Shown here piece by piece: positions 19,707-45,753 of a stretch of 64,000 nt of DNA. Where the stretch lies: NCBI RefSeq assembly GCF_000970025.1, contig NZ_CP009528.1, forward strand, positions 4,327,168-4,391,167. The letters run 5' to 3'. Source of the stretch: Methanosarcina barkeri MS. Lineage in GTDB: Archaea; Halobacteriota; Methanosarcinia; Methanosarcinales; Methanosarcinaceae. Made by a program: the position numbers and the translations under genes. Numbering within the stretch: position 1 is the stretch's first letter; each line of letters begins with the position of its first letter. Under the pieces are notes generated by a model, which saw only the letters and a list, made by a program, of their open reading frames with translations, ran no database searches and was not told where the DNA came from.

Positions 19707-21176
19707 TTACTGCTTGACTTCGCTTTTGACTCTGAATACGTACCTTTGTATTAAAGAAAGTTCGCGGTCTGTGAATCCACCTACAAGAAACATCATCACC
19801 AGATAGATAAGTACACCCATACCTGCAATCTCAAAAAGCTCAATGATGCTTGATATAGCAAAGTAGGAAACAAAGAAATACATAACTGTTGAGGACAAAA
19901 CGCTTTTTGCAATATCATGAAGATAAAAATCAAGTTTAAAGTGTTTTAAGGAAATATGCATACAAAGCACAGCCATTAAAAAGTAAGAAAATAAGGTTGA
20001 CAGTGAGGCTCCAACAATTCCAATGGAAGGTATCAATAGAAGGTTAATCAATACATTCGAAACTGCTGCAACAATATTAATGTAGGTCGAAGTTTTTGTT
20101 TGCTTGATAAGGAGCATTGTATTGACAAATATCTGGAAGATTCCTGCCAGAAGACCTGAGAAGGCAATAATGGGAATTACAACCCAACCCGAAAGAAAAT
20201 CATCAGTGGTAAGGATCCCAAGCAAAGGTTTTGCAAGAGCTGAGAGACCGAAGACTGCAGGAATTGAGAAGAGAAGGAAATATCTTAGAGAATGAGACAT
20301 ACAAATTCTTACTTCATCCATTTTATTTTCATCGAAAAGCTTTGATAACTCGGGAAGAAGAATGAGCTGAAGAGAACTTACAAAAAGCTGTATAAGACTG
20401 CCAATTGAACAGGCTGCCGAATATACCCCCACGCTTCCAAGGCCGAGAAAATAAGTAACCATATATCTGTCACTTGACTCTGTAATCCACCTTACAAGCG
20501 AATTGGGAGTTAAAGGTAGAGAAAAGTGCAAATACTCTTTTATGTAAGTAAATCGCGGGATAACGAATCCTATCTGTGATATGATCATCAGAAGAGAAAT
20601 TAAAAAAATGAAGCCCTGTACAACTAAAGTAGCCGCGATTACACCAAGAAGCCCGTATCCCATTTTGAGAAGAAAGAGAATAAAAAACAATTTTCCAAAC
20701 GTTTCAAAAAGGGTTAAGTAAGAAAATGTCTGAATTTGCCTGAAAACCCTGAAATAAAAAAGAGATATCGACTCGATAACGCTCAGAAGAATTAAAAGGG
20801 AACCTGCCTGGATAAAATAAGTTGCATGAGGGTCTTTAAAACCGAAGGTGGCAAGAGGCTCTGCAAACGTATAGAGTAAAAAAGAGGCCAACAGACCGGA
20901 TATAGTTACAAAAAAGAGAATTGAATATACTGCTTCCCTTATTATTTTGATTTCCGTTTCAGAAGATAAAAACCTGACAAAACCCATAGAGAGGCCCATC
21001 AGTGCAAGGGGAGAAATAAGAGATACAGTGGTATTGATCTGAGCCCAGAGCCCGTAGTCGTATGTTCCAAGGGTTTTTGTGATTATCGGAAGCAGGAAAA
21101 AAGTTCCCAGGCTTGTAAGTACCTGAACTGCCCCGATAAAACCAACATCCTTTGCAAATTTTTGATATGACACCAT
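19707..21176 (-). CDS. Polysaccharide flippase (Wzx-like)
   Basis: A protein of about 488 residues with about 14 membrane segments. The N terminus FAKDVGFIGAVQVLTSLGTF, then FLLPIITKTLGTYDYGLWAQ, is the Polysacc_synt signature. It is expected to move a lipid-linked oligosaccharide across the membrane. Translation may start at ATG 21176 or GTG 21173. The latter has AGGTG five bases upstream. It converges with the epimerase gene. Two flippases in the region suggest two different exported glycans. Confidence 0.88.
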   Translation of the reverse strand: MVSYQKFAKDVGFIGAVQVLTSLGTFFLLPIITKTLGTYDYGLWAQINTTVSLISPLALMGLSMGFVRFLSSETEIKIIREAVYSILFFVTISGLLASFLLYTFAEPLATFGFKDPHATYFIQAGSLLILLSVIESISLFYFRVFRQIQTFSYLTLFETFGKLFFILFLLKMGYGLLGVIAATLVVQGFIFLISLLMIISQIGFVIPRFTYIKEYLHFSLPLTPNSLVRWITESSDRYMVTYFLGLGSVGVYSAACSIGSLIQLFVSSLQLILLPELSKLFDENKMDEVRICMSHSLRYFLLFSIPAVFGLSALAKPLLGILTTDDFLSGWVVIPIIAFSGLLAGIFQIFVNTMLLIKQTKTSTYINIVAAVSNVLINLLLIPSIGIVGASLSTLFSYFLMAVLCMHISLKHFKLDFYLHDIAKSVLSSTVMYFFVSYFAISSIIELFEIAGMGVLIYLVMMFLVGGFTDRELSLIQRYVFRVKSEVKQ

Positions 21177-21957: not shown

Positions 21958-24597
21958 TTACCTATACACCAGATTCAATTTTGGTACCTGGCTCATGTTT
22001 TCGCAGTCCGCACTGTAGAAGGCGATATAGTTATCACTTTCACTGCGGGCTTCTATAAAGAAACCTGTATTTTCGTACCTGCCACTAACATACTCTTTTA
22101 CAAGATCGGTTACATCGAGCTCATAGTACCGGTTATCTGGCAAGTTACTAGCTCTCAGGGTTAATGTAGCATATGGAGTGCTGCCCTGAAGGACACCATT
22201 TTTATCATACCAATCTCCTCCTGAGTTATTCCAGGCAATGTCTTTATTCTTTTTATTCCAGCTCACATAATCAGGATTCCAAGAAACAGGCCTGTAGATC
22301 TCGATAACAGTATCATTTGATCGTGTGCTGAAAGGATAATACCAGAAAAGGGAAAGAGTCGCACTGTCTACCTCTGTGGCACTGGCATGTTCACTTAAAT
22401 TAAACGATATAACATCCCTGTACCTTCCAACATTGCTCAATTCTCCTACATCGATAAATGATGTGTCAGAAAAGATGCCCTCAGGTGAGGCTTCACGCAG
22501 ACGGTTGTCTTTTGCGCTAGTAATAGTTGCATTTGCAGTTACCCTTTTCTCAATATTAAGCTTTGGTGCCTGGCTTGTGTTTCCACAGTCAGCACTGTAG
22601 AAGGCGATATAGTTATCACTTTCACTGCGGGCTTTTATAAGAAAACCTGTATTTTCGTACCTGCCACCAACATACTCTTTTACAAGATCGGTTACATCGA
22701 GCTCATAGTACCGGTTATCTGGCAAGTTACTAGCTCTCAGGGTTAATGTAGCATATGGAGTGCTGCCCTGAAGGACACCATTTTTATCATACCAATCTCC
22801 TCCTGAGTTGTTCCAAGCAATGTCTTTATTCTTCTTATTCCAGCTTACATAATCAGGATTCCAGGAAACAGGCCTGTAAATCTCGATAACAGTATTATTT
22901 GGCCGTGGACTGGAAGGATAATACCAGAAAAGGGAAAGAGTCGCACTGCTGATTTCAGTAGCATTGGTGTATTCGCTTACGTTAAACCATATAAGGTCTC
23001 TGTATCTGCCAACACGGCTTATTTCCCCGACATCAAGAAATGATTTATCCGAAAAAACATCGTCAGGAGAAGCTTCACGCATACGATTGTCGTACATCTC
23101 TTCAGAGAGATTCAAAGAGGTTCCTGAAAGAGACGCGTAGATTGTGTTTCCATATCTTCCGATATTGATTCTGTTTCCATTGTCTTCAGGCTCGTTAGAG
23201 TAATCCGAGAAAGAACATCCGGCATCAATACAGGGAGAGTTAACTTTGTCCTTAACCCAGGTTTCTCCGTTCCAGCGGCCGGAGACAGACTGAATATGGT
23301 ATTCATGGTTTTCTTGGTCTGCAAAAAGAGGGTTTACATGGATATCAGTTGTCGATGCGCAGTTTTTATAGTTACCTGCTGAGTTATTGTAAAGACAGTT
23401 ATTTTCCAGTACAAAGGAATGTGTTGCAGGCAGGTAATTCATAATTCCATACCCTGTCCCACTCGGTGACTTTGTGCGCAACCTGGTATTTACAATTATG
23501 TTATTGCGGACAATTGTTGTAAATCCGTCGCCTTCTGGTACATAGGTTGGGGAATAACTATTGATATACATATTGGCGATTGCAGTGTGATATAATCCAT
23601 CAAAGACATTGTTTTCAATGACAGTGCCTTCAAATCCGCCAGTTATGATACCGCCCACCCAGGTAATGCTAGGATTAGTGCCCGTGTCATAGAAAGTATT
23701 GTGATGGATGTAGACATCTTTTGCCTGGTCTCGGGTAGCAGAAGAGCTATCATAGTTGAAAAGCCAGATTCCAGGGCCATAGGTATTATTGATAATATTA
23801 TTGTAAATCTCTATATTATCCATAATGCCTGCAGACTTTTCTACCTGAATCCCTGGCCCGCCTGCACTCCAGTGGTAGAAAGAATCGATGAAATTATCAT
23901 GAAATTTTACGTGGTTCGAGTTCCAGATTCTAAGACCACTGTTAGTCCTGCAGGTTATTGTATTATTCCAGGCCTCTACATTCTGACACTGAATCGTAAA
24001 CAGACCGTCATGTCCGAGCTTGTAGATAGTATTGTTGTAAAACTCGATGTTCTCACCATATTTTATCCTCAGCCCATCTCCGTGACCATCGTGCATATAC
24101 ATATCGCATACGGTTACGTTATTGCAGTAAAGGAAGTAAATCACATTATAATATCCTTTACCCTTAGCGAACTCGGTGTTACCGTCATGGTTCACATTAA
24201 CCTCAAACCCTCTTATTACAATATTATTATTTCCAGAACTGCTCATCTGCTTGATCAAAGGTTTCATTGTAACCCAGCCTGCGTGATCAACCAGCTTGAT
24301 CACAGCAGTCGAATCCCCTTCAAGAATAGTATTGCTGCCGATGAGAAGAGTATCATTAATAACATATGTAAAAGGACCTTTAAGGTAGACAGTGGTATAT
24401 TCAGAGTTATCGGCCACAAACTTAAGAGCCTGATTTATCTGTACATGATCATCTTTCCCATCGCAGTTAAAATCTCCACTGCCATCCCCTGCAACAGAAA
24501 CAGTTGGTGCAGGACTTCGGCATAAAGCAGTGGGAACGCTTGCAAGAATAAGGCAACCTACCAATAAAAAGACTCCTAGTTCTCGTTTTAATATCAA
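21958..24597 (-). CDS. Secreted β-helix protein with two DNRLRE domains (disaggregatase-related)
   Basis: An 879-residue protein. The signal peptide (KRELGVFLLVGCLILASV) leads into a region of about 470 residues with PbH1 turns (IEFYNNTIYKL, IEIYNNIINNT). Two DNRLRE/CBM96 modules follow, beginning DNRMREASP (about 502) and DNRLREASP (about 697), each ending with RYYELDVTDLVKEYV. The two modules are nearly identical in DNA over long stretches, so the duplication or a conversion is recent. β-helix plus DNRLRE suggests binding and cleaving of matrix polysaccharide, as known for disaggregatase. The paralogue at 27825 starts ATGCTAAAAAGAGA. Here the equivalent is ATATTAAAACGAGA, so translation probably begins at the TTG one codon earlier (24597), behind an AGGT element. 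The frame itself opens 35 codons further upstream. Confidence 0.85.
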   Translation of the reverse strand: MILKRELGVFLLVGCLILASVPTALCRSPAPTVSVAGDGSGDFNCDGKDDHVQINQALKFVADNSEYTTVYLKGPFTYVINDTLLIGSNTILEGDSTAVIKLVDHAGWVTMKPLIKQMSSSGNNNIVIRGFEVNVNHDGNTEFAKGKGYYNVIYFLYCNNVTVCDMYMHDGHGDGLRIKYGENIEFYNNTIYKLGHDGLFTIQCQNVEAWNNTITCRTNSGLRIWNSNHVKFHDNFIDSFYHWSAGGPGIQVEKSAGIMDNIEIYNNIINNTYGPGIWLFNYDSSSATRDQAKDVYIHHNTFYDTGTNPSITWVGGIITGGFEGTVIENNVFDGLYHTAIANMYINSYSPTYVPEGDGFTTIVRNNIIVNTRLRTKSPSGTGYGIMNYLPATHSFVLENNCLYNNSAGNYKNCASTTDIHVNPLFADQENHEYHIQSVSGRWNGETWVKDKVNSPCIDAGCSFSDYSNEPEDNGNRINIGRYGNTIYASLSGTSLNLSEEMYDNRMREASPDDVFSDKSFLDVGEISRVGRYRDLIWFNVSEYTNATEISSATLSLFWYYPSSPRPNNTVIEIYRPVSWNPDYVSWNKKNKDIAWNNSGGDWYDKNGVLQGSTPYATLTLRASNLPDNRYYELDVTDLVKEYVGGRYENTGFLIKARSESDNYIAFYSADCGNTSQAPKLNIEKRVTANATITSAKDNRLREASPEGIFSDTSFIDVGELSNVGRYRDVISFNLSEHASATEVDSATLSLFWYYPFSTRSNDTVIEIYRPVSWNPDYVSWNKKNKDIAWNNSGGDWYDKNGVLQGSTPYATLTLRASNLPDNRYYELDVTDLVKEYVSGRYENTGFFIEARSESDNYIAFYSADCENMSQVPKLNLVYR

Positions 24598-24740
24598 GAT
24601 TACCTGGGATTGATCACAACAGCGCATATTGTTAATTTTCGTAGATAGATTTTCATGTGGCGACGTATCAATACCCCCGCAGAATGTGATACTGTTTGTC
24701 AAAATTTACTTAAGCTTAGTATTCTATTTCTCGTAAATTG

Positions 24741-25851: not shown

Positions 25852-27825
25852 TCATTCCTCCAATCCGAGAGATAAATTGTTCAAACAAAAACCTTCAGGA
25901 GATACTTCGTAAAGGTAGTTGTCGTACACGTTAGAAAGGTTCAAAGAGGCTTCTTCAACCACACTTATTATTGCAACTTCAGAATCGTTGAAAATGCCAT
26001 CTCTTACCTCAAAAGCTATAGTGTATAGTCCTTCCTGTCCGTCGGAAGGCGTCCAGCTAAAAACCCCTGCTTCGTCAAAACTTGCGCCTGCAGGAAGAGC
26101 AGATGCCGAAAAGATAAGGTTATCTCCATTCACATCAGAAGCTTTCACTGTAAAGTTCAAAGTTTCTCCAATATTAACTGTAGTTTCGGGGATTGAATCG
26201 ATAACCGGACCCTGTGTGTCGACAGAAAGATCTTCAGAGTATGTGAAATTATCTTTGTCCACGTCAAAAACTTCCGCCGTAAAGTTAAGATCCTCATCAG
26301 TCTCATTTGTAGCTCCAGAGATAGAGTTTATTAACGAAGACTGCACAGTCTTTACTTGTGAACTCGACGACAGTGAAGCATAGATTGTATTTCCATATCT
26401 TCCTATGTTGATCCGGTTTCCATTATTTTCAGGTTCTTTAGAATAATCCGAAGAGGCACATCCGGAATCAATACAGGGAGAACTAACTTTATCCTTAACC
26501 CATTTTTTGCCATTCCAGTGACCTGCAACTGACTGGAGATGATAATCATGGTATTTCTGGCTCACAAATAATGGGTTTAAGTAGATGTCAGATTTCGAAG
26601 TGCAGCCTTTGTATTTACCTGCTGAGTTTTTGTAAAGGCAGTTATTTTCCAGAACAAAGGAATGCGTTTCAGACAGATAATTCATAATTCCATATCCTGT
26701 CCCACTAGGGGACTTTGTACGCTTCTGGGTATTTACAATTATATTGTTGCGGACAATTGTCGTGTATTTTGACTTATAATTTGAAAAAAAACCATCAGGA
26801 CTCATGCTGACAATGGCAGCATGGTATACGCCGTCAAAAACATTATTTTCAATTAGAGTATCATGGAATCCACTTCCTAAGATACCTCCAACCCAGGTAA
26901 TGCTAGGATTGGTACCTGTGCCGTAGAAGACATTATGGTAAATGTGGACATTTTTTCCTTGGTTTTTGGTAGCAGAGGTATCATAGTTGAAAAGCCAGAT
27001 TCCAGGACCATATGTGTTAGATATAGTATTATCATAGATCTCTATATCATCCATAATACCTGCAGACTTTTCGATCTGAATCCCTGGCCCACCTGCACTC
27101 CAGTGATAGAAAGAATCGATTACATTATTGTAGAATTTTACATGGTTTGAGTTCCAGATTCTAAGACCGCTATTAGTCCTGCAGGTTATCCTGTTTTTCC
27201 AGGCCTTTATGTTCTTACACTGAATTGCAAACAAACCGTCGTGTCCGAGCTTGTATATCCTGTTTTTGTAAAATTTAATATTTTTTCCGTATTTTATCCT
27301 CAGTCCGTCTCCAAGCCCATCGTGCATATACATGTTGTATACTTTTATGTTATTACAGTTAGTAAAGTAAATCATATTATAGTACCCTTTACCCTTAGAA
27401 ACTTTGGGATTACCGTCATGGTTTCCATCAATTTCGAACCCTCTTATTACAATGTTGCTATTTCCGGAACTGCTCATCTGCTTGATCATGGGTTTCATTG
27501 TAGCCCAACCTGCATTGTTCACCAGTTTGATAACAGCGTTTGAATCCCCTTCAAGAATAGTATTGCTGCCGATGAGAAGAGTATCGTCAATAACATAGGT
27601 AAAAGGACCCTTGAGGTGGACAGTGGTGTATTTAGAGTTACCTGCCACAAATTTAAGGGCCTGATTTATCTGTACATGATCATTTTTTCCATCGCAGTTA
27701 AAATCCCCACTCCCATCTCCCGCAACATAAACAGTTGGTGCAGGACTTAAGCATAAAGCGGTAGGAACGCTTGCAAGAATAAGGCAACTTACAAAGAAAA
27801 AGATCCCTAATTCTCTTTTTAGCAT
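25852..27825 (-). CDS. Secreted β-helix protein with Ig-like domain and truncated DNRLRE domain
   Basis: Paralogue of the gene at 21958. It has a signal peptide (MLKRELGIFFFVSCLILAS) and a PbH1 β-helix region (to about residue 490), with AGGTGA five bases before the ATG. An Ig-like fold follows at about 545-625 (PETTVNIGETLNFTVKASD, SWTPSDGQEGLYTIAFEVRD), resembling the putative-Ig/cadherin-like modules of surface proteins. The last 25 residues, YDNYLYEVSPEGF then LNNLSLGLEE, align with the first residues of a DNRLRE module and then stop, so about 150 residues are missing compared with the paralogue. The exchange of many Asn in the paralogue for Lys here (KNRIYKLGHDG versus NNTIYKLGHDG) removes sequons and makes the helix more basic. 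Confidence 0.83.
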   Translation of the reverse strand: MLKRELGIFFFVSCLILASVPTALCLSPAPTVYVAGDGSGDFNCDGKNDHVQINQALKFVAGNSKYTTVHLKGPFTYVIDDTLLIGSNTILEGDSNAVIKLVNNAGWATMKPMIKQMSSSGNSNIVIRGFEIDGNHDGNPKVSKGKGYYNMIYFTNCNNIKVYNMYMHDGLGDGLRIKYGKNIKFYKNRIYKLGHDGLFAIQCKNIKAWKNRITCRTNSGLRIWNSNHVKFYNNVIDSFYHWSAGGPGIQIEKSAGIMDDIEIYDNTISNTYGPGIWLFNYDTSATKNQGKNVHIYHNVFYGTGTNPSITWVGGILGSGFHDTLIENNVFDGVYHAAIVSMSPDGFFSNYKSKYTTIVRNNIIVNTQKRTKSPSGTGYGIMNYLSETHSFVLENNCLYKNSAGKYKGCTSKSDIYLNPLFVSQKYHDYHLQSVAGHWNGKKWVKDKVSSPCIDSGCASSDYSKEPENNGNRINIGRYGNTIYASLSSSSQVKTVQSSLINSISGATNETDEDLNFTAEVFDVDKDNFTYSEDLSVDTQGPVIDSIPETTVNIGETLNFTVKASDVNGDNLIFSASALPAGASFDEAGVFSWTPSDGQEGLYTIAFEVRDGIFNDSEVAIISVVEEASLNLSNVYDNYLYEVSPEGFCLNNLSLGLEE

Positions 27826-28852: not shown

Positions 28853-30709
28853 TTATTTACATTCTTCTGTTGAATTTTCTGTTGAGGTATCTGCAGCATT
28901 GTCACATGTTTTGTCTTCTGTTGAGGTATCTGCAGCATTGTCACATGTTTTGTCTTCTGTTGAGGTATCTGCAGCATTGTCACATGTTTTGTCTTCTGTT
29001 GAAGTTTCTGTTGAGGTATCTACAACTTTGTTACATGTTTTGTCTTCTGTTGAAGTTTCTGTTGAGGTATCTACAACTTTGTTACATGTCTGTTCTTCTG
29101 TTGAAGTTTCTGTTGAGGTATCTACAGCTTTGTTACATGTCTGTTCTTCTGTTGAAGTTTCTGCAGCATTGTCACATGTTTTGTCTTCTGTTGAAGTTTC
29201 TGCAGCATTGTCACATGTTTTGTCTTCTGTTGAAGTTTCTGCAGCATTGTCACATGTTTTGCCTTCTGTTGAAGTTTCTGCAGCATTGTCACATGTTTTG
29301 TCTTCTGTTGAAGTTTCTGTTGAGGTATCTGCAGCATTGTCACATGTTTTGTCTTCTGTTGAAGTTTCTGTTGAGGTATCTGCAGCATTGTCACATGTTT
29401 TGTCTTCTGTTGAGGTATCTGCAGCATTGTCACATGTTTTGTCTTCTGTTGAAGTTTCTGCAGCATTGCCACATGTTTTGTCTTCTGTTGAAGTTTCTGC
29501 AGCATTGTCACATGTTTTGTCTTCTGTTGAAGTTTCTGCAGCATTGCCACATGTTTTGTCTTCTGTTGAAGTTTCTGTTGAGGTATCTACAGCTTTGTTA
29601 CATGTTTTGTCTTCTGTTGAGGTATCTGCAGCATTGTCACATGTTTTGTCTTCTGTTGAGGTATCTACAGCTTTGTTACATGTCTGTTCTTCTGTTGAGG
29701 TATCTGCAGCATTGTCACATGTTTTGTCTTCTGTTGAAGTTTCTGCAGCATTGCCACATGTTTTGTCTTCTGTTGAGGTATCTGCAGCATTGTCACATGT
29801 TTTGTCTTCTGTTGAAGTTTCTGTTGAGGTATCTACAGCTTTGTTACATGTTTTGTCTTCTGTTGAGGTATCTGCAGCATTGTCACATGTTTTGTCTTCT
29901 GTTGAAGTTTCTGCAGCATTGCCACATGTTTTGTCTTCTGTTGAAGTTTCTGTTGAAGTTTCTGCAGCATTGTCACATGTTTTGTCTTCTGTTGAGGTAT
30001 CTGCAGCATTGTCACATGTTTTGTCTTCTGTTGAAGTTTCTGCAGCATTGCCACATGTTTTGTCTTCTGTTGAGGTATCTGCAGCATTGTCACATGTTTT
30101 GCCTTCTGTTGAAGTTTCTGCAGCATTGTCACATGTTTTGTCTTCTGTTGAAGTTTCTGCAGCATTGTCACATGTTTTGTCTTCTGTTGAAGTTTCTGCA
30201 GCATTGCCACATGTTTTGTCTTCTGTTGAAGTTTCTGTTGAGGTATCTACAGCTTTGTTACATGTTTTTTCAATAGAAGTGCAGCCACATAAGTCAGAGC
30301 TACAATTTGTTGAGCTACAATTTACGAAGCTGCAATTTGCTAAGCTACAATTTGTTAAGCTACAATTTGCTAAACTACAATTTGCTTGCTCACAGTCTGT
30401 AACGGACTCGTAACTACAAGATGTACATTCCTTGTTACAATCTTTGTTCTGTTTTCCATCTACAATAGGAACGCAGCCACATAAGTCAGAGCTACAATTT
30501 GTTGAGCTACAATTTACGAAGCTACAATTTACTAAGCTGCAATTTGTTAAGCTACAATTTGCGAAGCTACAATTTGCTTGCTCACAGTCTATTGCAGACT
30601 TTACAGAATTATCACAGGAAGATGCTCCTGCGGTAATTGAAGTTGAGATCATTAATATAAACAAAATAGATCCCATAATTTTTGCAATTGATTTGCCATT
30701 AGAATTCAT
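28853..30709 (-). CDS. Secreted repeat protein: N-C-S pentapeptide-like blocks and 33 Cys-Thr-Glu repeats
   Basis: A 618-residue protein with a signal peptide (KIMGSILFILMISTSITAGA) and GAGG before the ATG. Residues about 43-75 and 103-135 are two copies of a block of five-residue steps (ANCSF, ANCSL, TNCSL, VNCSF), like pentapeptide repeats with Cys at the inward position. Each NCS is also an N-glycosylation sequon. The two blocks are near-identical in DNA (30285-30400 and 30473-30590). From about residue 142 to the end run some 33 repeats of TCDNAAETSTEDK, with variants GN and NK, some lengthened by TSTE to 17 residues. Every repeat has one Cys and is acidic and Thr-rich, suggesting a disulfide-linked or glycosylated extracellular rod. 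No known family was recognised. Antisense frames stay open only because the repeat unit lacks stops. Confidence 0.8.
   Translation of the reverse strand: MNSNGKSIAKIMGSILFILMISTSITAGASSCDNSVKSAIDCEQANCSFANCSLTNCSLVNCSFVNCSSTNCSSDLCGCVPIVDGKQNKDCNKECTSCSYESVTDCEQANCSLANCSLTNCSLANCSFVNCSSTNCSSDLCGCTSIEKTCNKAVDTSTETSTEDKTCGNAAETSTEDKTCDNAAETSTEDKTCDNAAETSTEGKTCDNAADTSTEDKTCGNAAETSTEDKTCDNAADTSTEDKTCDNAAETSTETSTEDKTCGNAAETSTEDKTCDNAADTSTEDKTCNKAVDTSTETSTEDKTCDNAADTSTEDKTCGNAAETSTEDKTCDNAADTSTEEQTCNKAVDTSTEDKTCDNAADTSTEDKTCNKAVDTSTETSTEDKTCGNAAETSTEDKTCDNAAETSTEDKTCGNAAETSTEDKTCDNAADTSTEDKTCDNAADTSTETSTEDKTCDNAADTSTETSTEDKTCDNAAETSTEGKTCDNAAETSTEDKTCDNAAETSTEDKTCDNAAETSTEEQTCNKAVDTSTETSTEEQTCNKVVDTSTETSTEDKTCNKVVDTSTETSTEDKTCDNAADTSTEDKTCDNAADTSTEDKTCDNAADTSTENSTEECK
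28860..30268. repeat. Minisatellite of 39-bp and 51-bp units
   Basis: About 33 copies of a 39-bp unit, some extended by 12 bp. Both lengths are multiples of three, so gain or loss of units keeps the reading frame. Copies differ only at a few positions (GCATTGTCA versus GCATTGCCA, GAGGTATCT versus GAAGTTTCT), and the order of variants suggests higher-order duplications. Confidence 0.9.
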
Positions 30710-31135
30710 TTTATTCCTCTAGTTCCTCTGATCTTGTTCATCTAACTCAAGAAGATCCGGAACTAAAATTCATCCTTTCAATTATATATATAACAATACT
30801 TACATTAAATACGTTATATAAAATTCACAAAAATGGATCTAATACTTCATAACCACTAATAAAGTGATAAAAATAAATTTAAAGCTTTATAATGCTTTAT
30901 TTACATTTTATAATTATTTACATATTGTAGAACTAAATATTAATTAATTTTATTAAATTTTGATGTTGTTTAGTTCTGTTTAACCGCGTGTGTTTTTGAA
31001 ATTCTAAAATTGATATAATACATTAAATTTTTCAAAATTTTTTCTTTTCATTTTTTTATTGAACGCGATCACAAAGTGCTTAAAATAGCTGGATTGATAG
31101 CTTTAATATATTTTAACGGCAACAATATCCAGCAG
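30710..31135. other. Divergent promoter region
   Basis: AT-rich gap between the repeat-protein gene and the a,c-diamide synthase gene. It contains the TATA-like element at 30782. No gene was found. Confidence 0.5.
30782..30793 (-). promoter_or_regulatory. TATA box of the repeat-protein gene
   Basis: TTATATATATAA lies about 73 bp upstream of the ATG at 30709. This would give a leader of about 45 nt that includes the GAGG ribosome site. Confidence 0.5.
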
Positions 31136-32455
31136 ATGACAAAAGGAATACTTATTGCAGGAACCCATAGTGGGGTCGGAAAAACGACAGTCTCCATGGG
31201 TATCATGGCTGCCCTTAAACACAGGCAGCTAAAGGTTCAGCCTTACAAGGTAGGGCCGGACTATATCGATCCTTCTCATCACACTGCAATTTGCGGGCGC
31301 CCTTCAAGAAACCTGGACACATACATAATGGGCACTGACGGAGTCGGGCAAACTGTGGCGCGGACTTCTGCAGATGCGGATATTGTGGTAGTAGAAGGAG
31401 TTATGGGACTCTTTGATGGAATTGATTCTACGGAAATTGCAAGTTCCGCGCATATTGCAAAAACCCTTAACCTACCGGTAATTCTGGTAATCAATGTGCA
31501 TGGTATGTCCAGGAGTACCGCTGCTCTTCTTAAGGGGTATTCTGAGTTCGATCCTGAAGTAAAGGTTGTGGGCGTTATCCTGAATCAGGTAGGCAGCCCA
31601 AGGCATGCGGAACTCGTAAGAAATTCACTTTCGGGTAACATTCCTATTGTAGGTATGATCCCAAGAAAGAAAGATATCGAGGTTCCCTCCAGACATCTCG
31701 GGCTGTACATGGCCCATGAAAAGGACTACAATACTGAGGAAATGGCGGCTTTTATTGAAGAAAATGTTGACCTTGATGCAGTGATCGAACTTGCTGAGCC
31801 TATTTCTGTTCCGGATATCAGACAGATCCAGAAATCCGAAGCAGACCTCAGGATAGGAGTTGCCAGGGACCCTGCTTTTTGCTTTTATTACCAGGATATG
31901 TTCGATGCCTTTAGGGATTATGGAGCTGAAGTCGAATTTTTCAGCCCAATGGCAGGAGAGCTTCCAGATGTGGATGGGATTTACTTTGGAGGCGGCTACC
32001 CTGAACTTTACGCAGAAGTCCTTGAGAAGTCAGAAACTACCAGAAAACTTAAAGGCCTTGCAGCTGACGGTTTGCCTATCTATGCAGAATGCGGTGGCCT
32101 TCTTTACCTCTGCGGGACATATGAAATCGATAACAGAACATATAAACTTGCAGATGTCGTGCCTGCAAACACACGTATGACAAACCGGCTTAAAGCCCTT
32201 GGGTATACTGAAGCTCGCCCTCTGGACAAAAACTTCTCTTCTCATAATATAAGAGGCCATGAATTCCATTACTCTATTACTGAATGCGATCGCGATGCAA
32301 AGTTTGCATACGAAATGCTGCGCGGAAAAGGTATACAGGATGGTTTTGATGGCATTATAGAGCACAACACCCTGGCAGGCTATATGCATTCTCACCCTGC
32401 TACCTTCCCGGTAGAAAAATTTGTGGAAAAATGCAGGAAATACCGAAGAAAGTAA
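31136..32455 (+). CDS. Cobyrinate or Ni-sirohydrochlorin a,c-diamide synthase
   Basis: ATP- and glutamine-dependent amidation of the a and c acetate side chains of a tetrapyrrole. The N-terminal half has the P-loop GTHSGVGKTTVSMGIM and YKVGPDYIDPSHH. The C-terminal class I glutaminase-like half has YFGGGYPELYAE, the nucleophile in IYAECGGLLYLCG, and GHEFHYS. In methanogens the same family serves cobamide (CbiA) and coenzyme F430 (CfbB) synthesis. No cfb or cbi neighbours are in the window, so the pathway is not decided. The frame opens at 31076, but ATG 31136 fits the family start. Confidence 0.9.
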   Translation: MTKGILIAGTHSGVGKTTVSMGIMAALKHRQLKVQPYKVGPDYIDPSHHTAICGRPSRNLDTYIMGTDGVGQTVARTSADADIVVVEGVMGLFDGIDSTEIASSAHIAKTLNLPVILVINVHGMSRSTAALLKGYSEFDPEVKVVGVILNQVGSPRHAELVRNSLSGNIPIVGMIPRKKDIEVPSRHLGLYMAHEKDYNTEEMAAFIEENVDLDAVIELAEPISVPDIRQIQKSEADLRIGVARDPAFCFYYQDMFDAFRDYGAEVEFFSPMAGELPDVDGIYFGGGYPELYAEVLEKSETTRKLKGLAADGLPIYAECGGLLYLCGTYEIDNRTYKLADVVPANTRMTNRLKALGYTEARPLDKNFSSHNIRGHEFHYSITECDRDAKFAYEMLRGKGIQDGFDGIIEHNTLAGYMHSHPATFPVEKFVEKCRKYRRK

Positions 32456-42475: not shown

Positions 42476-42572
42476 CCCTATCTTTACCTCAGATCAAACA
42501 TTAATAATGCTGACGCTAGAAACCAATAAACCACTTGCTTATTACCACTTTTCAATCCTTTTCCGACTTTTC

Positions 42573-42680
42573 CTAATTTGGGGATGTGATTTTCCTTTCT
42601 AAACGTTTTACTAATTTGGGGATGTGATCCTCCTTTCTAAACTTTTACCTAATTTGGGGATGTGATTTTCCTTTCTAAAT
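42573..42680. repeat. Three direct repeats of about 38 bp
   Basis: CTAATTTGGGGATGTGAT with CCTTTCTAAA occurs three times back to back, at 42573, 42611 and 42649. The copies are contiguous, without spacers, so this is not a CRISPR array. The surrounding 42337-43077 region holds no other recognisable gene. Confidence 0.85.
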
Positions 42681-43077: not shown

Positions 43078-45753
43078 TTGAAGGCAAGTAAACGTGAGCT
43101 TGAGCCAATGCCTTCCCTATCCGCCAGAATGTATTCAGCCCTGCACCAGTATTTTGGATACACTTCCTTTCGCCCGTTGCAAGAGGAAATTATAAGGGAT
43201 GTTCTGAAGAGGAAAGATGTTTTTGTTCTCATGCCTACCGGCGGGGGTAAATCGATGTGCTACCAGCTGCCTGCCCTTCTCATGGAAGGAGTTACGGTTG
43301 TTGTATCTCCTCTGATCTCTCTGATGAAAGACCAGGTTGACGGGCTTGAAGCAAACGGAATTGCTGCAGCCTGCATGAACAGTACCCAGAGCGCCAGAGA
43401 AAACCGGGATGTAAAGATGGCTTTTCTCGAAAACCGGTTAAAAGTTCTTTACGTTGCTCCTGAAAGGCTTATGATGCCAGGAACCCTTGCCTTTTTAAAG
43501 AAAGGAAAGGTCAGCCTCTTTGCAATAGACGAAGCGCACTGCATTTCCGAGTGGGGGCATGATTTCCGGCCTGAGTACAGGAAATTGAAACTTTTGAGGG
43601 ATTCCAAAACAGGCTTTCCTGATATCCCAATTATTGCGCTTACGGCAACAGCCACAGAAAGGGTTCGAGAAGACATCATATCACAACTCAATCTTCATCT
43701 TCCTCCGGAAAAAGGTCCTTACGTAGCCAGTTTTAACCGGAAAAACCTTTACTATGAAGTCAGGCCAAAGAAAGAGACCTTTTCCGAGATTACTGACTAC
43801 CTGCGCAGACATAGAGGTGAAGCAGGAATAATCTACTGCCAGAGCCGAAATAGTGTCGAGGCCCTTACAAAAAAACTGAACCTTGCAGGTTTCAGGGCCC
43901 TTCCCTACCATGCAGGGCTTTCGGATACCGAGAGAAACCGAAACCAGGAGATGTTCATTAAAGATGACGTGGACATCATAGTAGCTACAATCGCTTTTGG
44001 GATGGGAATTGATAAGTCCAACGTACGTTTTGTAATACACTATGACCTTCCCAGAAATCTTGAAAGCTACTATCAGGAAACCGGAAGAGGAGGAAGGGAT
44101 GGAAGCCCATGCGAATGTATTCTTTTCTTCAGCAGAGGGGACCGTTTCAAGATTGAGTACTTTATTTCACAGAAGACAAATGAAAAAGAGAAGGAAATTT
44201 CTCTGGTGCAGTTAAGGCAAATGGTAGCTTATTGCGAGGGAAATAAATGCAGGCGCCAGACTTTGATGGAGTACTTTGGTGAAGAGCTATCAGAACCCTG
44301 CGGGAACTGTGACTGCTGCCTTACTCCGAAAGATACCTTTGACGGAACTGAAGCTGCAAAAAAATTTATAACCTGCGTCCAGGAACTGAACCAGCGTTTT
44401 GGTACTAACTATGTTATTGATGTCCTCACAGGCTCAAAGAATAAAAAGATCCGGCACAACCGTCATGAAAGATTGAAAAGTCACGGCAATGGCACGGAGT
44501 TCACAAAAGAACAATGGAAATCATTAGCTTCCGAAATGATAAACACCGGTCTTCTGGATGTAAGCGGGACAAAGTATCCTTTATTGAAGCTTAACGCCAT
44601 GAGCAGAAAAATACTGAAAGGACTGGAAAAAGTAGAACTTGTCTGCCCTGAAGGCTTTGTTCCTGAAGCTGAAGAAAGTTCCGTGCCTTCTACAGCGGTC
44701 GGTACAAAAGGCAAAAAAGCCGATGATCTAAGTTTCTCTGAGGAAAAGGCTTTTCCAGAAAAATTTTCAGTTGCTTCTGACATCCTGAAAGCTTCAGAGG
44801 CGAAAAAAACTGAAATGTCCGGAAAAGAGCCTGATCCTATCCTTTTTGAGCGGTTAAAAGCCCTGAGAAAGGAAATTTCTCTTAAGAGAAATCTTCCTCC
44901 TTACATTGTTTTCTCTGATACTTCCCTTAAGGAAATGGCTACAAGATTTCCACATAACCTTGAGGAGTTCCATTCCATTACAGGAGTTGGAGAGCATAAA
45001 TTAAAAAAATACGGGGATATTTTTCTCAAAGAAATCGAAAACTACTGCAGAGATTATAGTTTGGTTCCCGCTGACAAACCTGCTGAAAAATCTGCTGAAA
45101 AACCTGAACAATTAGAGGTTGCCTGTAAAGACTCTGAACAAAAGGGAATACGCTCGAAAGAAATTGCTCAAAATGATGAAAATCCCAAAACTGAGGTTGA
45201 GATATTCGGGACTAAAATGCCCAATCCCGAGTCTGACAACATCAACAGCCTGGAAACCTGCAACTTACAGACAAAAAGGGCAAGGTATCTGGATACGAGC
45301 ATTCAGGACTGGTCAGAGCAGAATTCTTCGGCAGGCGGCTTCAGGAAAATAGACGCAGCAGAGATCTCGCCTGAATTAGAGGTTGCAAGTGTCACCAGAT
45401 CGGATATTTCTACCTCCAGTTCTTTTGAAACGGATTCTCTGCAAAGAACTTTCTCTCTTTTTACGAAAGGGCTTGGAATCGATGAAATTGCTGATATCCA
45501 GGGTACGAGTACTAGAGACATTTTCAGGCAACTTGAACAGCTCACTCTTTCTGGAAACGTCAAGGTTATTGGAGGACTTTTACCTCCCAAAAGACAAAAA
45601 CAGATAAATTCTACCCTGAAAAGCTTAGAAGTTGAGCTGGATTCCCTACTTCGGACAAGGTTGGGTGAGAACTGTCCGGAAGAAGAAATGAAATTTGTCA
45701 GGGCCCTCCTTCTGTCCAGAATCTGCTTTTCCCAGTCTGAAGACAGCAAGTAA
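43078..45753 (+). CDS. recQ: RecQ family DNA helicase with long C-terminal extension
   Basis: A 3'-5' DNA helicase for recombination and repair. FGYTSFRPLQEEII opens the core, then Walker A MPTGGGKSMCYQLPAL, the DEAH box FAIDEAHCISEWGHDFRPEY and motif VI YYQETGRGGRDG. A zinc site (CEGNKCRR, CGNCDCC) sits at about 384-420, a winged-helix region follows, and an HRDC domain is near 585-660 (RLKALRKEISLKRNLPPYIV). An acidic, low-complexity linker leads to a C-terminal helix-turn-helix module near 785-840 (FTKGLGIDEIADIQGTSTRD), like those at the end of some bacterial RecQs. At 891 residues it is longer than typical RecQ (about 600). The start is TTG 43078 or ATG 43108, and neither has a clear ribosome site. 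Confidence 0.9.
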   Translation: MKASKRELEPMPSLSARMYSALHQYFGYTSFRPLQEEIIRDVLKRKDVFVLMPTGGGKSMCYQLPALLMEGVTVVVSPLISLMKDQVDGLEANGIAAACMNSTQSARENRDVKMAFLENRLKVLYVAPERLMMPGTLAFLKKGKVSLFAIDEAHCISEWGHDFRPEYRKLKLLRDSKTGFPDIPIIALTATATERVREDIISQLNLHLPPEKGPYVASFNRKNLYYEVRPKKETFSEITDYLRRHRGEAGIIYCQSRNSVEALTKKLNLAGFRALPYHAGLSDTERNRNQEMFIKDDVDIIVATIAFGMGIDKSNVRFVIHYDLPRNLESYYQETGRGGRDGSPCECILFFSRGDRFKIEYFISQKTNEKEKEISLVQLRQMVAYCEGNKCRRQTLMEYFGEELSEPCGNCDCCLTPKDTFDGTEAAKKFITCVQELNQRFGTNYVIDVLTGSKNKKIRHNRHERLKSHGNGTEFTKEQWKSLASEMINTGLLDVSGTKYPLLKLNAMSRKILKGLEKVELVCPEGFVPEAEESSVPSTAVGTKGKKADDLSFSEEKAFPEKFSVASDILKASEAKKTEMSGKEPDPILFERLKALRKEISLKRNLPPYIVFSDTSLKEMATRFPHNLEEFHSITGVGEHKLKKYGDIFLKEIENYCRDYSLVPADKPAEKSAEKPEQLEVACKDSEQKGIRSKEIAQNDENPKTEVEIFGTKMPNPESDNINSLETCNLQTKRARYLDTSIQDWSEQNSSAGGFRKIDAAEISPELEVASVTRSDISTSSSFETDSLQRTFSLFTKGLGIDEIADIQGTSTRDIFRQLEQLTLSGNVKVIGGLLPPKRQKQINSTLKSLEVELDSLLRTRLGENCPEEEMKFVRALLLSRICFSQSEDSK

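Follow-up and report, generated by a model that had tools for sequence, protein, structure and literature searches.

A gene at a conserved position in part of the genus Methanosarcina may encode an exported, disordered and acidic polythiol, whose tail thiols would cross-link its chains into an extracellular network. We put this reading forward tentatively, at somewhat less than an even chance; export, cross-linking and the formation of a network are all predictions made from sequence. The evidence comes from the conservation of the locus and its leader, and from a repeat tail that has been rewritten between lineages while its cysteines and its acidity were kept.

The gene and its product

The window is the whole 64-kb stretch of DNA analysed here (G000:C2:4327168-4391167 in the window genome, G000); the features of interest are collected in Table 1. 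Comparison with orthologs leads us to regard the open reading frame as a genuine gene on the minus strand, and plus-strand frames of 468 and 504 aa were rejected as by-products of the stop-free repeat. The protein begins with the signal peptide MNSNGKSIAKIMGSILFILMISTSITAGA, as read from the sequence, which is likely to be cleaved after AGA, and a cysteine at or adjacent to position 32 (Cys32 in the window protein) is invariant in the ortholog alignment. Two NCSxx arrays, separated by a short C-x3-C-x2-C linker (C91-C98), precede repeat units that start at residue 150 and run to the end.

Table 1. Features of the cysteine-repeat locus, in positions of the window
Feature	Position	Strand	Remarks
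Gene for the predicted secreted Cys-repeat protein	28853..30709	-	618 aa, ATG start, stop 28853-28855; syntenic orthologs, conserved leader and RBS
33 tandem units of 13 or 17 aa (39/51 bp)	28856..30262	-	One Cys each, C-terminal ECK
Second NCSxx array, C106-C143	30281..30394	-	Replaces the CxCxxC half of other orthologs' scaffold (ortholog alignment, scaffold scan)
First NCSxx array, C42-C79	30473..30586	-	Cys every 5 residues, then CGC
Signal peptide, residues 1-30 (MNSNGKSIAKIMGSILFILMISTSITAGAS)	30620..30709	-	Invariant columns in ortholog alignment
Leader and promoter tract (AATAAAGCATTATAAAGCTTTAAAT, TTAATGTAAGTATTGTTATATATATAATTGAA, purine-rich RBS)	30710..30905	-	12 upstream regions aligned
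CfbB/CbiA-type a,c-diamide synthase (CbiA + GATase_3)	31136..32452	+	Divergent neighbour, syntenic anchor across genus

In Tandem Repeats Finder the tail appears as an array with a 39-bp period (28877-30237; 32.4 copies, score 1396, about 82% matches), and the NCSxx blocks as two arrays with a 15-bp period (30298-30386 and 30490-30578). Parsing of the tail gave a count of exactly 33: 23 units are 13 aa long and ten are 17 aa long, and the terminal ECK supplies one cysteine beyond the one per unit. The longer unit is the shorter one with a second TSTE (TSTETSTE in nine of ten, TSTENSTE in the last). A sequence-only reading had described an export signal, two N-C-S blocks and about 33 units of 13 or 17 residues, each with one Cys and a TSTE core, and in all of these respects it proved accurate, a signal-peptide-like start being common to the orthologs as well. 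The mature protein would carry a net charge of -97, with 56 Cys and a combined total of four aromatic residues and His. The regular spacing of the tail cysteines is not due to chance, because its coefficient of variation (CV) is 0.13, whereas the lowest value among 2000 random placements was 0.54.

Distribution and genomic context

Orthologs lie divergently from cfbB/cbiA in 14 of 31 Methanosarcina-genus genomes (G000, G002, G004, G005, G007, G010, G011, G014, G018, G023, G025, G027, G029 and G030), with two tandem copies in G018, and the locus is empty in the remaining 17. The window gene shares this position, together with the signal peptide and the invariant Cys columns, and matches the family profile at E 8.1e-46; that profile included the window sequence, and the window protein alone had also recovered relatives. 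A TATA-like tract and a purine-rich RBS immediately before the ATG are common to 12 aligned upstream regions, and that of G011 aligns poorly. Contig ends or N runs fall in or near the gene in G010, G023 and G025, as expected for a repeat.

No gene remnants above chance were found in the empty cfbB loci, and the absence of the gene at the locus in 17 of the 31 genomes indicates that it is dispensable in many lineages. When mapped on a tree of cfbB from 30 genomes, presence or absence changes seven times and carriers fall on both deep branches. This distribution is most simply read as a single ancient gain followed by several losses; transfer via flank recombination may be an alternative source. 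Searches of 186 genomes of the order gave only weak matches outside the genus. Two of these, in other genera, were inspected: one (L038) was a signal-peptide-like start and the other (L036) a low-complexity stretch, with no Cys-rich relative in either case. A second match in the window's own genome (G000:C2:2129250) lies inside an open reading frame with pentapeptide matches and was rejected as a paralog. A viral origin was likewise set aside, as no viral contig matched.

The opposite flank of many orthologous loci holds a radical-SAM gene that appears MoaA-like from its motif CNLxCMYC, and this gene is next to cfbB in 13 of the 17 empty loci. G000 and G030 differ on this flank. Downstream of the gene, the window encodes a related pair of exported beta-helix proteins that contain Disaggr_assoc domains (21958-24702 and 25852-27825, both minus strand), one of which also has Disaggr_repeat and CBM96. 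As these stand where most orthologous loci have the MoaA-like gene, the downstream flank has been rearranged in the window genome. A polysaccharide flippase-type protein (Polysacc_synt_3; 19707-21176, minus strand) suggests an exopolysaccharide region beside the Cys-repeat gene. Elsewhere in the window, a 38-bp tandem repeat of three copies (42566-42679) lies upstream of a RecQ-like helicase open reading frame (43078-45753, plus strand). In G013 and G015, tandem TRAM-like small proteins of 68-72 aa (L077:5237-6273 and L078:4907-6273, both plus strand) are encoded directly upstream of cfbB, in the place that the Cys-repeat gene occupies in other species.

The N-terminal module and metal binding

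The exact scaffold CxxCxCx5Cx4CxCxxCxC is present one to five times in each of nine orthologs and is common, not universal, in the cfbB-linked family. It is absent from the window protein; NCSxx arrays stand there in the window clade, in which the first half of the scaffold persists in G004 and G030 only. The clade still shows a recognisable core, SVTDCEQANC...LCGC, with the CDCELC middle replaced by an SLxNC pentapeptide run. Most simply, part of a Cys-dense module would have expanded locally to give the NCS blocks, the sequons arriving with the expansion. Between close orthologs, dN/dS over the N-terminal 150 codons is 0.39-0.50, compared with 0.09-0.15 for cfbB, and the region is therefore constrained, but loosely.

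Such a module might instead belong to an extracellular metal- or Fe-S-binding polymer acting like a secreted metallothionein. Its scaffold would bind metal in thiolate clusters, and at the cell surface its acidic single-Cys tail would collect or nucleate Fe, Ni, Zn or metal sulfide. We regard this as possible, if on balance unlikely, and rank it close behind a cross-linkable extracellular polymer. Metallothioneins have few aromatics and Cys-dense CxC and CxxC clusters, features shared by the nine members with the exact scaffold. The archaeal protein differs from metallothioneins in its predicted export, far greater length, acidity and long single-Cys tail. The metallothionein profile gave no match up to E 1 for the window protein or E 0.1 for four orthologs, and the family searches gave none to a ferredoxin or other metal-protein family. 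In addition, the intact scaffold has been lost in the window clade, and an evenly spaced single Cys is by itself no chelating motif. The main text of PMC8630215 reports that M. barkeri MS takes Fe and S from pyrite, and its dialysis experiments point to contact or large extracellular agents; that of PMC9431491 describes Cys-rich proteins of Methanococcus voltae which increase on pyrite, one of them abundant extracellularly. Gene-specific expression data for metal or pyrite conditions were not found in the main text of the papers searched.

Turnover of the repeat tail

The tail units are specific to lineages: CDNAADTSTEDKT in G000, CSNAADTSTEEKT in G004, CEKAVETPAKEKT in G014, ETVDAKEVAKCDAK in G002, CEDAATEAPETTENKN in G007 and APVCEDTEEVEE in G005. 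The ten tails measured contain 6.6-10.3% Cys at a mean spacing of 9.8-15.2 residues, 27-44% Asp+Glu and 0-6% FWYLIM. Cysteine spacing is far more regular than random in G000, G002, G004, G007 and G030 (CV 0.02-0.23) and no more regular than random in G029; the G014 tail is too short to judge. A terminal ECK recurs in G000, G004, G014, G018, G005 and G029.

Among the three closest species (G000, G004 and G030), the order of units differs, unit number is 33, 33 and 29, and Cys is retained in 92 of 92 internal units. Of the 32 units in G004, 25 write this cysteine as TGT and 7 as TGC; the codon thus varies and the residue has been kept. Units are more alike within genomes (DNA identity 0.88-0.93) than between them (0.85-0.88), a mark of concerted evolution. 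Complete orthologs range from 197 to 647 aa, and the earlier suggestion that length varies in frame holds as a difference between species.

Cys is missing from the C-terminal parts of two proteins, the G011 ortholog and the second G018 copy, and the Cys-repeat pattern is thus not universal. The former (L064:262-1791, minus strand) has CSSGSGSTCGTSS-type repeats, a Thr/Pro-rich C-terminal region and a net charge of only -8; the latter (L057:6796-8499, minus strand) has the same signal peptide and N-terminal Cys, followed by an NPEQ-rich repeat tail. Exported Cys-rich proteins with a similar style of signal peptide were also seen at unrelated loci in G020 (L065:7976-8689, minus strand, 16.8% Cys) and G022 (L067:10402-10884, plus strand, 9.3% Cys), and a wider set of such proteins in the genus is possible.

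A largely unconstrained, low-complexity secreted protein, shaped by slippage and gene conversion and with its Cys kept by homogenisation rather than function, would accord with the repeated changes and clean absences on the tree and with the mostly nonsynonymous variation among units (1179 nonsynonymous against 252 synonymous codon differences in G000). We consider this improbable, because independent rewriting of the tail in several lineages has each time preserved high acidity and one Cys per 10-15 residues or so, the N-terminal dN/dS is below 1, and the promoter and RBS are conserved.

Family searches, predicted fold and glycosylation

We could find no catalogued family for the protein, as the sequence-only reading had supposed. 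Pfam and NCBIfam gave nothing over the cut-off for the window protein, nor did Pfam for four orthologs, and the PDB profile search was empty. A PDB lysostaphin match (E 0.0039) was rejected as a low-complexity match over the repeats, and an NCBIfam HalA match (17 of 250 bits) as a pentapeptide-like cross-match. The NCSxx blocks resemble pentapeptide-repeat proteins in their 5-residue period and, as with the A(D/N)LXX motif, in having N just ahead of the central residue. Unlike those proteins, however, they have a central Cys, form short arrays and score below the cut-offs (13.2 against 20.2 bits for PF00805, 19.5 against 38 bits for PF13599), which other genes of the window genome pass; orthologs outside the window clade lack the arrays altogether. 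The Cys-repeat protein was not named in the main text of PMC8630215, PMC9124975, PMC10846266 or PMC9431491, and no paper on it was found in a literature search that covered M. barkeri expression papers by their main text.

AlphaFold gave no confident structure for the N-terminus of the window protein (pLDDT 35.6), in which nothing like the right-handed quadrilateral beta helix of pentapeptide-repeat proteins was seen, and none for the scaffold form (pLDDT 44, from few sequences); as the window alignment held only 5 sequences, its low pLDDT is weak evidence of disorder. An acidic chain without hydrophobic residues should nonetheless be disordered, and the lack of a confident fold is consistent with this. 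No membrane anchor is visible in the protein.

The window protein has 12 NCS sequons and 13 N-x-S/T sites in total, with 14 in G004 and 11 in G030, compared with 0-3 in nine other core-type orthologs; the divergent G011 ortholog and the second G018 copy have 7 and 11. Since N-C-S arrays are confined to the window clade among core-type orthologs, glycosylation, which had been proposed for the window protein, is not a property of the family, although it may occur within that clade. The first suggestion, a variable-length adhesin or rod that is glycosylated and linked by disulfides, has the sequons, export signal and repeat array in its favour. It is the least probable of the explanations considered, given that dense sequons are so restricted, that the repeats lack hydrophobic residues and that no rod-like fold, adhesive domain or anchor was seen.

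Discussion

Our preferred explanation is that the gene product is an exported, intrinsically disordered and strongly acidic polythiol. After removal of the signal peptide, the two-block Cys-dense module would form a compact Cys knot or metal-thiolate node, and the repeat tail would be flexible and polyanionic, carrying a single thiol in each stretch of 13-17 residues. Through these thiols, chains would be tied to one another, and possibly to components of the cell surface, in an extracellular network bridged by disulfides or metal-thiolates. Recombination between tandem repeats, in 39- or 51-bp steps, would change tail length with the frame intact, and selection would hold thiol density and charge and not a particular sequence. 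This is supported by the conserved locus, promoter tract, RBS and signal peptide, by lineage-specific tails that nevertheless keep their Cys share, acidity and low FWYLIM content, and by the fully retained unit cysteines, N-terminal constraint and recurrent ECK. The lack of a visible anchor, the many empty loci and the Cys-free C-terminal parts speak against it.

The nature of the bridges bears on how the two leading explanations relate. Stable disulfides are disfavoured by the sulfide and cysteine that abound in methanogen media and habitats. On the other hand, disulfides have been proposed between subunits of the Methanospirillum sheath, an extracellular methanogen protein, in cells grown with both sulfide and cysteine (PMC10593813), although that protein is amyloid-like and folded, has only two Cys and is not a repeat polythiol. 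Disulfide cross-linking is possible, and metal-thiolate binding deserves equal weight as an alternative; if the bridges are metal-thiolates, the cross-linkable and the metal-binding polymer may be the same thing. By analogy, the protein might work like other Cys-rich repeat or matrix proteins. The spore exosporium proteins CdeC of Clostridioides difficile, described as self-assembling (PMC7677010), and CsxA of Clostridium sporogenes are also Cys-rich and belong to an outer layer. They differ in being from another cell type, one that forms spores, and show no sequence relation in any search.

Evenly spaced cysteines have survived near-complete rewriting of the surrounding repeats, and thiol density itself is therefore likely to be the selected trait. 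More speculatively, and with considerable doubt, the family could represent a class of methanogen extracellular polythiols, anoxic and possibly metal-bridged matrix polymers that serve mineral or metal contact or aggregate cohesion and in which thiol spacing and charge, not sequence, are selected as each lineage rewrites its repeats. The surface components that contact minerals are still unknown according to the main text of PMC8630215, PMC9124975 and PMC10846266. If our interpretation is true, the locus would offer a defined single-copy gene for probing the extracellular matrix of Methanosarcina, or the handling of metals and metal sulfides at its surface, and species that naturally have or lack the gene, at a position that is otherwise collinear, would provide ready comparisons.
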